The translations under genes were made by a program, and so were the position numbers. The notes below the pieces were generated by a model. That model ran no database searches and was not told the origin of the DNA. It saw only the letters and a list, made by a program, of their open reading frames with translations. Shown here piece by piece: positions 55,142 to 57,954 of a DNA stretch of 64,000 nucleotides. Within the stretch, counting starts at the first letter, position 1; each line of letters starts with the position of its first letter. The DNA lies in assembly GCF_004342585.1 (NCBI RefSeq), contig NZ_SLZQ01000002.1, positions 372,001 through 436,000 on the forward strand, in the 5' to 3' direction. Origin of the DNA: Paucimonas lemoignei. GTDB taxonomy: Bacteria; Pseudomonadota; Gammaproteobacteria; Burkholderiales; Burkholderiaceae_D.

Positions 55142-56602
55142 ATGAAACCATTCGAACCCAATCTCGCTACGCTTGCCACTGCCCGCGACATCCTGCTCAC
55201 GCCATTCGGCCTGGATGAATCGAAGCTGCTGACCGCGCTGGGCACCATGTTCACGCACAAGGTCGATTACGCCGACCTGTATTTCCAGTTCACGAAGAAT
55301 GAAGGCTGGAGCCTGGAAGAGGGAATCGTCAAGACCGGCAGCTTCTCGATCGATCAGGGCGTCGGTGTGCGCGCGGTGTCGGGCGACAAGACGGCGTTTT
55401 CCTATTCCGACGAGATTTCCGAGCGCGCGCTGAATGAGGCTGCTGCGGCGACGCGTACCATCGCACGCCAGGGTGCGGGCAAGATCCAGGTGGCGCAAGC
55501 CATCCAGCCGGGCGGCGGGCGCAACCTGTACTTGCCGAACGATCCGCTGGTGTCGCTGGACGCCACCCAGAAAGTCAAGCTGCTGGAAAAGGTGGAGCGC
55601 ATTGCCCGTGCGCGCGATCCGCGCGTAGTGCAGGTCATGGCCGGTTTGGCCGGTGAATACGATGTCGTGCTGGTGGTGCGCAGCGATGGCGTGCTCGCCG
55701 CCGATATCCGTCCCCTGGTGCGCCTGTCCGTCACCGTTATTGCCGAACAGGATGGCCGGCGCGAGGTCGGCTCTTCCGGCGGCGGTGGGCGCTACCGCTA
55801 CGATTACTTCACCGATGAACTGCTGGAAAAATATGCGACCGAAGCGGTGAATTCCGCGCTGGTCAATCTGGATGCGCGCCCTGCGCCGGCCGGCCCGATG
55901 ACCGTTGTGCTGGGTAATGGCTGGCCAGGCGTATTGCTGCACGAAGCAATCGGTCATGGACTAGAAGGCGATTTCAACCGCAAGGGTTCGAGCACCTTCT
56001 CCGGTCGCATCGGCGAGCGCGTCGCCGCCAAGGGCGTGACGGTGGTGGATGACGGCACTCTGGCGGATCGCCGCGGCTCGCTCAACATGGATGACGAAGG
56101 CAATCCGACCCAGTGCACCACGCTGATCGAGGATGGCATCCTGAAGGGCTATATCCAGGACACGCTGAACGCGCGCCTGATGAAGATGGCGATCACAGGC
56201 AACGCGCGCCGCGAATCCTTCGCCCACCTGCCGATGCCGCGCATGACCAATACCTACATGCTGGCCGGCGACAAGGATCCGGCGGAAATCATCGCATCGG
56301 TCAAGAATGGCCTTTATGCCGTGAACTTCGGCGGTGGCCAGGTCGACATCACCAACGGCAAGTTCGTGTTCTCGGCCAGCGAAGCCTACATGATCGAGGA
56401 TGGCAAGGTGACTTACCCGGTCAAGGGCGCGACCCTGATCGGTAATGGCCCGGAAGTCCTGAATCGGGTATCGATGATCGGCAATGACATGAAGCTGGAC
56501 CCGGGCATCGGCGTCTGCGGCAAGGAAGGACAGAGCGTACCGGTTGGCGTCGGCCAGCCGACCATGCGCATCGACGGCATGACGGTCGGCGGTACAGCAT
56601 AA
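55142..56602 (+). CDS. tldD: Metalloprotease TldD
   Basis: A 486-residue subunit of the TldD/TldE protease, involved in microcin maturation and small peptide breakdown in E. coli. The zinc motif HEAIGH (His267, Glu268, His272) lies in [21 protein letters not shown], with the later [21 protein letters not shown] segment that closes the site. The N-terminal part (TLYF-like [17 protein letters not shown]) matches the family. TACAAT at 55082-55087 is a candidate -10. tldE/pmbA is not in the window. A terminator follows. Confidence 0.96.
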
Positions 56603-56604
56603 GG

Positions 56605-56633
56605 AAATGCCCGGCAAAGGCCCGGGCATTTTT
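56605..56633 (+). terminator. Intrinsic terminator of tldD
   Basis: AAATGCCCGG (56605-56614) and CCGGGCATTT (56622-56631) form a 10-bp perfect stem, followed by more Ts. Confidence 0.9.
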
Positions 56634-56713
56634 GCTAAAATGGGACACAAACTTGCCAAGAGGCTCGATTTGTAGCAATATTTCCCCATCAGCGAAGTAT
56701 TTTGGTAATCCCG

Positions 56714-56785
56714 ATGACAATCGCCCGCTTTTATTTCTGGTTTTACTTTAGCTATTCCAGCCCGATGGCGGTGGAAAAGCGGTAA
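56714..56785 (+). CDS. Aromatic-rich leader peptide of aroG
   Basis: A 23-codon ORF, ATG at 56714, TAA at 56783. It starts MTIAR, then FYFWFYFSY (residues 6-14), then SSPMAVEKR. Eight of nine consecutive codons encode Phe, Tyr or Trp (four Phe, three Tyr, one Trp), a density expected only of an attenuation leader such as pheL. Its ribosome site is weak. It lies between a terminator for tldD and the attenuator hairpin in front of aroG. I infer that stalling for charged Phe/Tyr/Trp tRNA controls aroG. Confidence 0.85.
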   Translation: MTIARFYFWFYFSYSSPMAVEKR

Positions 56786-56847
56786 GCGCGCGAATAAACA
56801 AGCCCTAAACCGATTTCTGAAAAAACCGCCAGTGATGGCGGTTTTTT
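56725..56847 (+). promoter_or_regulatory. Transcription attenuator of aroG
   Basis: Three competing pairings are visible. (1) CCGCTTTT (56725-56732) with AAAAGCGG (56775-56782), spanning the aromatic codons. (2) TGGCGGT (56766-56772) with ACCGCCA (56825-56831), an antiterminator. (3) The terminator AAAAAACCGCCA (56820-56831) with TGGCGGTTTTTT (56836-56847), loop GTGA. A ribosome stalled on the aromatic codons breaks pairing 1 and frees the antiterminator; one that reaches the stop codon covers 56766-56772 and lets the terminator form. Confidence 0.85.
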
Positions 56848-56880
56848 CGTTTATACAGATTTAATTTACTGGAGAAAAAG

Positions 56881-57954
56881 ATGCCGCGCACTGACGATCT
56901 GAGGATCCGAGAATTGAAAGAACTGACACCTCCCTCGCACCTGATCCGCGAGTTTCCGTGCTCGGCAAAAGTTGGCGAAGTCGTCGCCAACGCGCGCACC
57001 TCCCTGCATCGTATCCTGCACGGCCAGGATGACCGCCTGATGGTGGTGATCGGCCCATGCTCCATCCATGATCCCAAGGCAGCGATGGAATACGCCAATC
57101 TGCTGCTCAAGGCACGCCAGCGTTATGCCGGCGAACTGGAAGTCGTCATGCGCGTGTATTTCGAAAAACCGCGCACCACGGTTGGCTGGAAAGGCTTGAT
57201 CAACGATCCGTACATGGACAACAGCTTCCGCATTAATGACGGCTTGCGCATGGCGCGCGAACTGCTGGTCAATATCAACGAGCTGGGTCTGCCGGCCGGC
57301 ACCGAATTCCTCGACGTGATCAGTCCGCAGTATTTCGCCGACCTGATCAGCTGGGGCGCGATCGGCGCCCGCACGACCGAATCGCAAGTGCACCGTGAAC
57401 TGGCCTCGGGCCTGTCGTGCCCGGTCGGCTTCAAGAACGGCACCGATGGCAACGTCAAGATCGCTGTCGATGCGATCAAGGCCGCATCGCAGCCGCACCA
57501 TTTCCTTTCGGTGACCAAGGGCGGTCACTCGGCAATCGTGTCAACGTCCGGTAATGAGGATTGCCATATCATCCTGCGCGGCGGCAAGGCGCCGAACTAT
57601 GATGCGGAGAGCGTGGATGCGGCTGCTAAGGCGATTGCCGCCAGCGGCCTGGCCTCGCGCCTGATGATCGATGCTTCCCACGCCAACAGCAGCAAGAAGC
57701 CGGAGAATCAGGTGCCGGTGTGCGCCAATATCGGCGAGCAGATCGCCGCAGGCGATACCCGTATCGTCGGCGTGATGGTCGAATCGAACCTGGTGGCGGG
57801 CCGCCAGGATCTCGTCGAAGGCAAGGAACTGGTCTATGGCCAATCGATCACTGATGGCTGCATCAGCTGGGATCAAAGCTTGGGCGTGCTGGAAGTGTTG
57901 GCTGCGGCAGTCAAGCAGCGCCGGCTCAAGGAAGGTTCTAAAGAAGAAGGTTAA
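56881..57954 (+). CDS. aroG: 3-deoxy-7-phosphoheptulonate synthase (DAHP synthase, AroG type)
   Basis: A 357-residue class I (AroAI-alpha) DAHP synthase that condenses phosphoenolpyruvate with erythrose 4-phosphate, the first step to Phe, Tyr and Trp. Family landmarks: VVIGPCSIHDPKAAMEYANLL, YFEKPRTTVGWKGLINDPYMD, GARTTESQVHRELASGLSCPVGFKNGTDG, and the metal ligands in IDASHANSSKKP. Which amino acid inhibits it cannot be read off. GGAG precedes the ATG. It stands 33 nt after a leader-peptide attenuator, so its transcription should fall when charged aromatic tRNAs are plentiful. Confidence 0.97.
   Translation: MPRTDDLRIRELKELTPPSHLIREFPCSAKVGEVVANARTSLHRILHGQDDRLMVVIGPCSIHDPKAAMEYANLLLKARQRYAGELEVVMRVYFEKPRTTVGWKGLINDPYMDNSFRINDGLRMARELLVNINELGLPAGTEFLDVISPQYFADLISWGAIGARTTESQVHRELASGLSCPVGFKNGTDGNVKIAVDAIKAASQPHHFLSVTKGGHSAIVSTSGNEDCHIILRGGKAPNYDAESVDAAAKAIAASGLASRLMIDASHANSSKKPENQVPVCANIGEQIAAGDTRIVGVMVESNLVAGRQDLVEGKELVYGQSITDGCISWDQSLGVLEVLAAAVKQRRLKEGSKEEG

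Follow-up and report, generated by a model that had tools for sequence, protein, structure and literature searches.

The leader region of aroG

The 64,000-nucleotide stretch of Paucimonas lemoignei DNA analyzed here (hereafter the window), which lies on the contig coded G000:C2 of a 4.2 Mb genome, carries on its forward strand the gene aroG (56881-57954), encoding a type I 3-deoxy-D-arabino-heptulosonate 7-phosphate (DAHP) synthase of 357 amino acids (aa; NF006723, 586.7 bits for a cut-off of 568; PF00793), and, ahead of it on the same strand, a compact region that is a candidate transcription attenuator. This region begins with a leader open reading frame (ORF) of 23 codons (56714-56785, with its ATG at 56714 and a TAA stop at 56783-56785) for the peptide MTIARFYFWFYFSYSSPMAVEKR, in which direct reading confirmed the run FYFWFYFSY, the putative control codons, at positions 6-14 (56729-56755), as originally predicted. 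Segment 1 (GCTATTCCAGCC, 56751-56762) can pair with segment 2 (TGGCGGTGGAAAAGC, 56766-56780) to form a first hairpin (1:2), and segment 2 can instead pair with segment 3 (ACCGCCA, 56825-56831) to form an antiterminator (2:3). Segment 3 also belongs to the 5′ arm of an intrinsic terminator (3:4; GAAAAAACCGCCA-GTGA-TGGCGGTTTTTTC, 56819-56848), a perfect 13-bp stem of -19.2 kcal/mol. Since TGGCGGT is present both in the leader ORF (56766-56772) and in the 3′ arm of the terminator (56836-56842), ACCGCCA can pair either way, which bears out the original prediction that the two structures exclude each other. That prediction was also right about a stem with a T6 before aroG, although the stem has 13 bp instead of 12, the T6 (the U run of the terminator) sits within the 3′ arm and not behind it, and the gap to the aroG ATG, which is preceded by GGAG at 56871-56874, is 32 nt instead of 33. 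A simple terminator scan of 56580-56900 reported no site, because such a scan expects the T run after the stem and here it is inside.

Conservation of the leader upstream of aroG

An aromatic ORF followed by a terminator precedes aroG in 28 of the 30 loci of the window's family (window included), and the same arrangement recurs well outside it. We used a mechanical rule that calls for an ORF of 12-60 aa with at least five Phe, Tyr or Trp (F/Y/W) in 10 residues and, placed 5-95 nt past its stop codon, a perfect stem of 6 bp or more that has a T run; it was set after viewing the loci and before its controls. The rule was satisfied by 118 of 194 non-duplicate upstream regions (193 of which precede aroG, L118 being the exception), by one of 970 dinucleotide shuffles, by none of 194 reverse strands and by one of 4,488 other sequence windows of the same loci. 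Some regions failing the rule look positive by eye (L026, L082, L153, L183, L189, and L197) and were kept as negatives in the counts based on it and in the tree described below.

Covariance models recovered the same association. Model R1, built from 27 family leaders (alignment A1; L026 was excluded for its short match and L018 and L028 for having no leader, and L031-L035 and L037 were removed as duplicates), was searched blind to genes against 399 genomes of the order and matched 69 of them at an E-value of 0.01 (73 places); each of the 30 best among these 73 places is found immediately 5′ of an aroG homologue. Weak R1 matches are mostly other things (six of the seven examined, L201-L207, are not aroG leaders, L206 being the one that is), so only strong matches were counted. 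L118, chosen as an R1 match, is the same place as L205 and has no aroG in the stretch taken; it is one of five loci chosen as R1 matches (L116-L120), four of which do have the aroG start in the stretch, while the other 55 loci of that set of 60 were hand-picked among the aroG loci listed, with one or a few taken for each genus, and the rule is satisfied by 17 of them. Model R2, built from 47 diverse leaders picked by hand from the 118 (alignment A3), matched at an E-value of 1e-4 in 52 of 398 genomes of the phylum (53 places) and in 6 of 274 genomes of the class, several searched genomes having contributed rows to R1 or R2 and the taxa of R2 overlapping its training set. Among 32 R2 loci (the best 30 of the 53 phylum places and two from the class), 31 precede aroG; the exception, L243, lies after what looks, from its GGM repeat, like the end of groEL. 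The original prediction of a pheL/trpL-type attenuator before aroG had itself named a comparison of ORF and stems among relatives as one that could refute it; the leader ORF and the exclusive stems were found conserved, and this comparison did not refute it.

Mutually exclusive RNA structures

In the family, the first hairpin is formed by segment 1 with GGCGGTGGAAAAGC (56767-56780), 96.9% of the alignment cells being paired in the 27 sequences and two pairs being changed on both sides. The pairing originally put forward, CCGCTTTT with AAAAGCGG, was rejected as the 1:2 hairpin: both elements are present, but only 73.1% of the cells are paired and 256 of 500 shuffles do as well. The core of the antiterminator, GGCGG/CCGCC, holds its five pairs in 46-47 of the 47 diverse sequences, and its outer flanks vary on both sides, with UA, CG, UG, or AU as the first outer pair. 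In this set of 47, cells changed on both sides number 15 in the antiterminator (7.9 when shuffled, 0 of 500 shuffles as high) and 25 in the terminator (again 7.9 and 0 of 500), of which 96.1% of the cells are paired. In addition, the flanks of segments 2 and 3 contribute 1.29 added Watson-Crick pairs within a locus versus 0.91 between loci (0 of 5000; 66 distinct sets), 6 of the 118 loci having been dropped for want of both cores and the first core having been used in the 45 of 112 with several possible ones. As judged from these sequences, the antiterminator and the terminator are mutually exclusive and both conserved with matched changes in their flanks.

The antiterminator might extend beyond its core. 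In a fold of 56766-56831, the spacer element AAACCGATTTCT (56807-56818, forward strand) pairs its TTTCT with GGAAA and its ACCG with CGGT, which extends the 2:3 structure to -18.9 kcal/mol, near the value of the terminator. Spacers also pair better with their own leader (10.42) than after swaps between loci (9.89; 0 of 300 as good; 94 distinct loci/pairs), 11 of the 118 loci having been dropped from this test as well as from the folding and codon-placement tests below. A second part of the antiterminator in the spacer is possible, the margin being small and the pairing varying by lineage. In L020, L123 and L124, unlike in most family members, the base beside the core agrees across the leader and both terminator arms (AGGCGGT / ACCGCCT / AGGCGGT), and these loci thereby keep both exclusive stems.

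What is conserved downstream of the aromatic run appears at the level of RNA. GGCGG occurs in each of the three reading frames (90, 7, and 5 of the 102 loci whose best helix contains it; it is missing from the best helix in 16 further loci), which argues that the RNA has been kept rather than the C-terminus of the leader peptide. A one-base deletion in L013, L020, and L021 alters the end of the peptide and leaves the stems in place, and L017, L025, L026, and L027 have early stops. The aromatic run itself is held at the amino-acid level, with Phe in 118, Tyr in 117, and Trp in 60 of 118 leaders, in which these residues account for 18.2%, 10.9%, and 2.5% of the total, respectively. As a separate observation, TTTAGC (Phe-Ser; A1 columns 31-36, 56747-56752 in the window) is invariant in all 27 family leaders, and TACTTTAGC is found again in Bradyrhizobium and Mesorhizobium leaders; the 1:2 stem accounts for its 3′ part only.

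Ribosome position and proposed mechanism

Constrained folding of stalled and released states was done with a ribosome footprint assumed to be fixed at +15 from the P site. In the window, segment 2 stays uncovered when the ribosome stalls at any codon from 6 to 14, and the probability of the antiterminator, P(2:3), is 0.97-0.98 as long as segment 4 has not been made; it falls to 0.09 at codon 15, the one following the last aromatic codon (codon 14), and to 0.0 at later codons. Over 107 loci, 734 of 780 F/Y/W codons (94%) occupy permissive positions versus 581 of 1672 other codons (35%). A ribosome at the stop codon covers segment 2 in all 107 loci, and in 102 of them P(2:3) exceeds 0.5 in the stalled state and stays below 0.1 at the stop.

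The anatomy of this region, its conservation before aroG, the conservation and partial covariation of its exclusive stems, and the placement of its aromatic codons are computational observations, and from them we infer ribosome stalling as the event and tRNA charging as the signal. A ribosome-mediated transcription attenuator very probably controls aroG, a reading to which we assign a probability of about 0.9. RNA polymerase would transcribe the leader as a ribosome translates it. A shortage of Phe-tRNA and/or Tyr-tRNA, or perhaps of Trp-tRNA in some lineages, would stall the ribosome at codons 6-14, where it would cover segment 1. Segment 2 would then be free to pair with segment 3, and probably with some of the spacer, ahead of the synthesis of segment 4; the antiterminator so formed would pre-empt the terminator and aroG would be transcribed. 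With charged tRNA in plenty, the ribosome would reach the stop and cover segment 2, the 3:4 stem would form, and transcription would end before aroG.

The start of the leader transcript deserves separate mention. A promoter-like site on the forward strand (TTGCCA-18-AATATT, 56653-56682), recognized by consensus match only, agrees at 9 of 12 positions (one site found for 0.4 expected in shuffles). A start about 6-8 nt past it would give a 5′ untranslated region (UTR) of about 25 nt, and no Shine-Dalgarno-like motif precedes the leader ATG. In 27 of the 118 loci, among them L044, L051, L053, L054, L096, L116, L119, and L120, a -10-like box ends just 6-10 nt before the leader ATG, as compared with 6% of shuffled sequences, and Shine-Dalgarno-like motifs are rarer before leaders (7/118) than before the aroG match start (66/118). 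Translation of some leaders may consequently start on transcripts that are leaderless or almost so.

Evidence against attenuation and alternative explanations

Several results weigh against this mechanism. Two of the 30 family loci, L018 and L028, have no leader. Taken by itself, the window is unremarkable in folding energy (z -1.24; matched or bettered by 21 of 200 shuffles), its leader/terminator complementarity is attained in 24.5% of random synonymous recodings, and the same comparison made locus by locus, a weak test, reaches 5% or less in just 39 of 118 loci; the evidence for an aroG attenuator is that of conservation among sequences, not of the window alone. Neither 2:3 (390 and 385 of 500 shuffles as high) nor 3:4 (464 and 464) exceeds the shuffles in its number of pairs or of pair types, and an antiterminator slid by one column still yields 11 cells changed on both sides, related rows inflating such counts, so the covariation is moderate. 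The base pair just inside the antiterminator core fails in 35 of 47 sequences. The contrast in codon placement is partly built in, because the aromatic run precedes segment 2 in the ORF, and a stall at the last aromatic codon covers at least two bases of segment 2 in 40 of 107 leaders. At full length and at equilibrium, the terminator is favored even with a stalled ribosome (median probability 0.95), and the switch must therefore be kinetic, through capture of the 2:3 structure; since the median is higher for the terminator whatever the state, equilibrium folding was set aside as an uninformative test of read-through. Folds without a ribosome are mixed: P(2:3) drops under 0.5 in just 61 of the 107 loci, and in the window the transcript made up to the terminator then adopts 2:3, so that an untranslated leader might read through.

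Other explanations of the region can be set against the same data. Because tldD (55142-56602, directly upstream of the leader region) ends so close by, the hairpin could be its ordinary 3′ terminator, next to an aromatic ORF due to chance. However, tldD is followed by a separate hairpin with a T run (56607-56633, read from the sequence and absent from the list of the simple scan), and the combination of aromatic ORF and terminator is found again upstream of aroG across many families while being nearly absent elsewhere in the same loci; this conservation refutes the idea, to which we give practically no credit. A strong terminator also predicts a terminated RNA, and rnTrpL and peTrpL of Sinorhizobium are described as acting in trans in passages of PMC10117765 and PMC7298713, so the main product might be a trans-acting molecule, either a stable, terminated small RNA (about 130-160 nt long) or a small protein, with attenuation being secondary. 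Yet cis attenuation accounts for the exclusive 2:3 and 3:4 stems and for the codon placement, which would be superfluous in a trans-acting RNA, and the strong blind matches stay with aroG; we regard a mainly trans-acting product as unlikely.

Slightly less probable still, to our mind, is that the nascent peptide is the sensor, a conserved FYFSYSSP stalling the ribosome through the exit tunnel in response to a free ligand, with the hairpins lying downstream of the stall. The strong conservation of YFSYSSP in the window's family, with the TTTAGC bases invariant in all rows, is what such a sensor would show. But part of this stretch is segment 1 and explicable by RNA pairing, the peptides differ after the run from one family to another (PLAE, TAVE, RRDE, GGG), and what is kept is a set of several interchangeable F/Y/W codons, as the sensing of codons predicts. 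Control of aroG by ribosome-mediated attenuation is thus the reading we retain.

Distribution of the leader and phylogeny of AroG

Within the order, the coded families with at least one locus satisfying the rule are f1, f3, f4, f9, f10, f11, f12, f19, f22, f29, f31, f39, f43, and f49, the positives in f39, f43, and f49 resting on loci chosen with R1. Sampled families without such a locus, at 1-6 loci each, add to the evidence against the mechanism (f2, f5, f6, f13, f17, f20, f21, f24, f25, f27, f32, f38, f42, and f46). Among named aroG loci, 46 of the best 80 listed are positive. They include Janthinobacterium, Rugamonas, Massilia, Herminiimonas, Oxalobacter, Burkholderia, Paraburkholderia, Caballeronia, and Cupriavidus, next Xanthomonas, Stenotrophomonas, Pseudoxanthomonas, Dyella, and Rhodanobacter, and also Bradyrhizobium, Mesorhizobium, Devosia, and Methylosinus. 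Negative loci came from Pantoea, Dickeya, Pectobacterium, Serratia, and Citrobacter, from Rhodocyclus, Thauera, Azoarcus, and Dechloromonas, from Methylotenera and Polynucleobacter, and from an Undibacterium (L141) close to the window's own lineage.

An AroG tree of 89 rows requires 12 changes of the leader label, compared with 27.3 when labels are shuffled (none of 500 shuffles as low). It joins rhizobial with xanthomonad AroG sequences (21 rows) within a clade of 57 rows that includes 49 positives; the tree was made quickly and has some weak branches, and near-copies also cluster labels. This pattern fits a gene and a leader that have descended, or been transferred, together. A broader proposal would be that of a single ancestral attenuator dedicated to aroG, with a Phe/Tyr run followed by GGCGG in any frame, spanning beta-, xanthomonad and rhizobial proteobacteria, both inherited and transferred with the gene, serving as the main control of pathway entry in many bacteria without TyrR, with a Phe/Tyr/Trp mix tuned by lineage and with some leaderless transcripts; for all these parts to hold jointly we would give about even odds.

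The sensed amino acid and TyrR

The original prediction held that charging of Phe, Tyr, and Trp tRNA would be sensed together, and in that form it finds no support, given the 60 of 118 leaders with Trp mentioned above. The nearest analogue that has been studied, aroR-aroF of Corynebacterium glutamicum, is moreover reported to respond to Phe and not to Tyr (PMC11802643). Leaders holding Trp amount to 6 of 43 in the window's family, 13 of 18 in the Burkholderia-like group, 8 of 8 among xanthomonads, and 9 of 9 among rhizobia; in alignment A1, 4 of 27 family rows have a Trp codon, within the aromatic run in three of them (L001, L002, and L027). As the signal in the window, Phe is most likely and Tyr likely, and Trp is uncertain.

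The accompanying remark that aroG would not be controlled by a TyrR-type repressor only stands to the extent that the window's genome gave no match to the TyrR-type helix-turn-helix (HTH) domain (TIGR04381), for which the E. coli control was positive. Among the 399 genomes of the order, in a survey that scored at most 16 candidates per genome, 13 match this domain at an E-value of 0.001 and six are above the cut-off. Three of these six (G239, G269, and G357) also carry the aroG leader (L042, L041, and L036, respectively), so leader and TyrR are not exclusive, which speaks against a simple replacement of one by the other. These three genomes belong to one genus within the window's family.

Published expression data from Ralstonia solanacearum go in the direction expected of attenuation. 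As given in passages of PMC6379268, loss of AroG2 raises an aroG1-lacZ fusion from 47 Miller units to 702 (about 11-15-fold), and 1 mM Phe lowers it to 316 in the mutant (about 2.2-fold); in the wild type, Phe shifts it just from 47 to 40 (PMC6379268), which counts against the mechanism. The direction matches attenuation but does not test it, being known there from the expression of aroG1 and not from its leader. The leader is present in Cupriavidus lacunae (L140). Among the plasmid records listed (40 of 469), none is from Ralstonia.

Relation to known attenuators

In E. coli pheL-pheA, a Phe-rich leader ORF and exclusive antiterminator and terminator structures lie upstream of an aromatic biosynthesis gene; the aroG leader follows the same logic and controls a different gene. 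With pheL/trpL-type systems it shares a short ORF rich in end-product codons, exclusive 2:3 and 3:4 stems, and, under the assumed footprint, the placement of these codons. For a DAHP synthase gene, an attenuator was reportedly described in Corynebacterium glutamicum aroR-aroF by Neshat et al. in 2014, as cited in a review. Passages of PMC11802643, which also mention the E. coli pheL leader peptide, and of PMC4046766 report that the Phe-Tyr-Phe leader of this system responds to Phe, not to Tyr. The two systems, as described there, are alike in having an aromatic leader peptide before a DAHP synthase gene and reported ribosome-mediated attenuation, but C. glutamicum is an actinobacterium and the likeness is one of design, drawn from descriptions and not from sequence. 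In a passage of PMC2659441 that cites Camakaris 1980, aroF of Shewanella and E. coli is given as an attenuator sensing tyr-tRNA, so that attenuation has been proposed for a proteobacterial DAHP synthase too, albeit, as far as the description allows the comparison, for another isoenzyme gene and another lineage. Attenuators of the trpL type also share the logic, but they sense Trp and control trpE. The leader ORF of Sinorhizobium meliloti trpL, described as leaderless in part of PMC10117765, resembles the 27 loci with a close -10-like box, whereas the window's leader has the predicted 5′ UTR instead. TyrR/PhhR of gammaproteobacteria, according to a passage of PMC5343134, likewise controls DAHP synthase genes by aromatic amino acids, but is a DNA-binding protein.

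The type of mechanism is therefore a textbook one, and aromatic-leader control of a DAHP synthase has already been described in C. glutamicum. Our literature search found no description of a proteobacterial aroG attenuator, although older work on proteobacterial attenuators, such as Vitreschak et al. 2004, may mention one; within the literature searched, this leader family before proteobacterial aroG appears undescribed. The main text of PMC2965389 names neither aroG nor aroF. For this region, Rfam 15 returns nothing at gathering score: Phe_leader (RF01859) reaches 22.3 bits on the forward and 24.7 bits on the reverse strand against a gathering score of 55, over the terminator hairpin region, and no leader family reaches its gathering score in 11 further loci, a tRNA in L113 being their sole match. 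Membership in an existing Rfam family was likewise rejected for all 11 matches at E-values up to 5 in 56000-57500, every one being under its gathering score; they include sraL (E-value 2.1e-4; 30 bits against 39), whose terminator stem falls on that of the aroG leader.

The leader thus suggests, in testable form, how aromatic synthesis may be controlled at its entry in many bacteria without a detected TyrR domain, and provides a model-ready RNA family. Leaders with differing Phe/Tyr/Trp mixes form a natural series in which to ask if a single leader senses more than one amino acid, and loci with the antiterminator element in different frames yet with the same RNA pairing are material for comparison.

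Further observations

The window's genome has a second DAHP synthase (L211, G000:C8:21200-21900; gene at G000:C8:21808), 49% identical to the first; in the 608 bases before it, no ORF satisfies the leader rule and one reaches four F/Y/W in 10 residues. At L002, about 100 extra bases separate the terminator from aroG and contain a repeated GGGACAG-type sequence together with its complement, which would fit the insertion of a small repeat element, and L010 has a stretch that resembles this extra repeat sequence.

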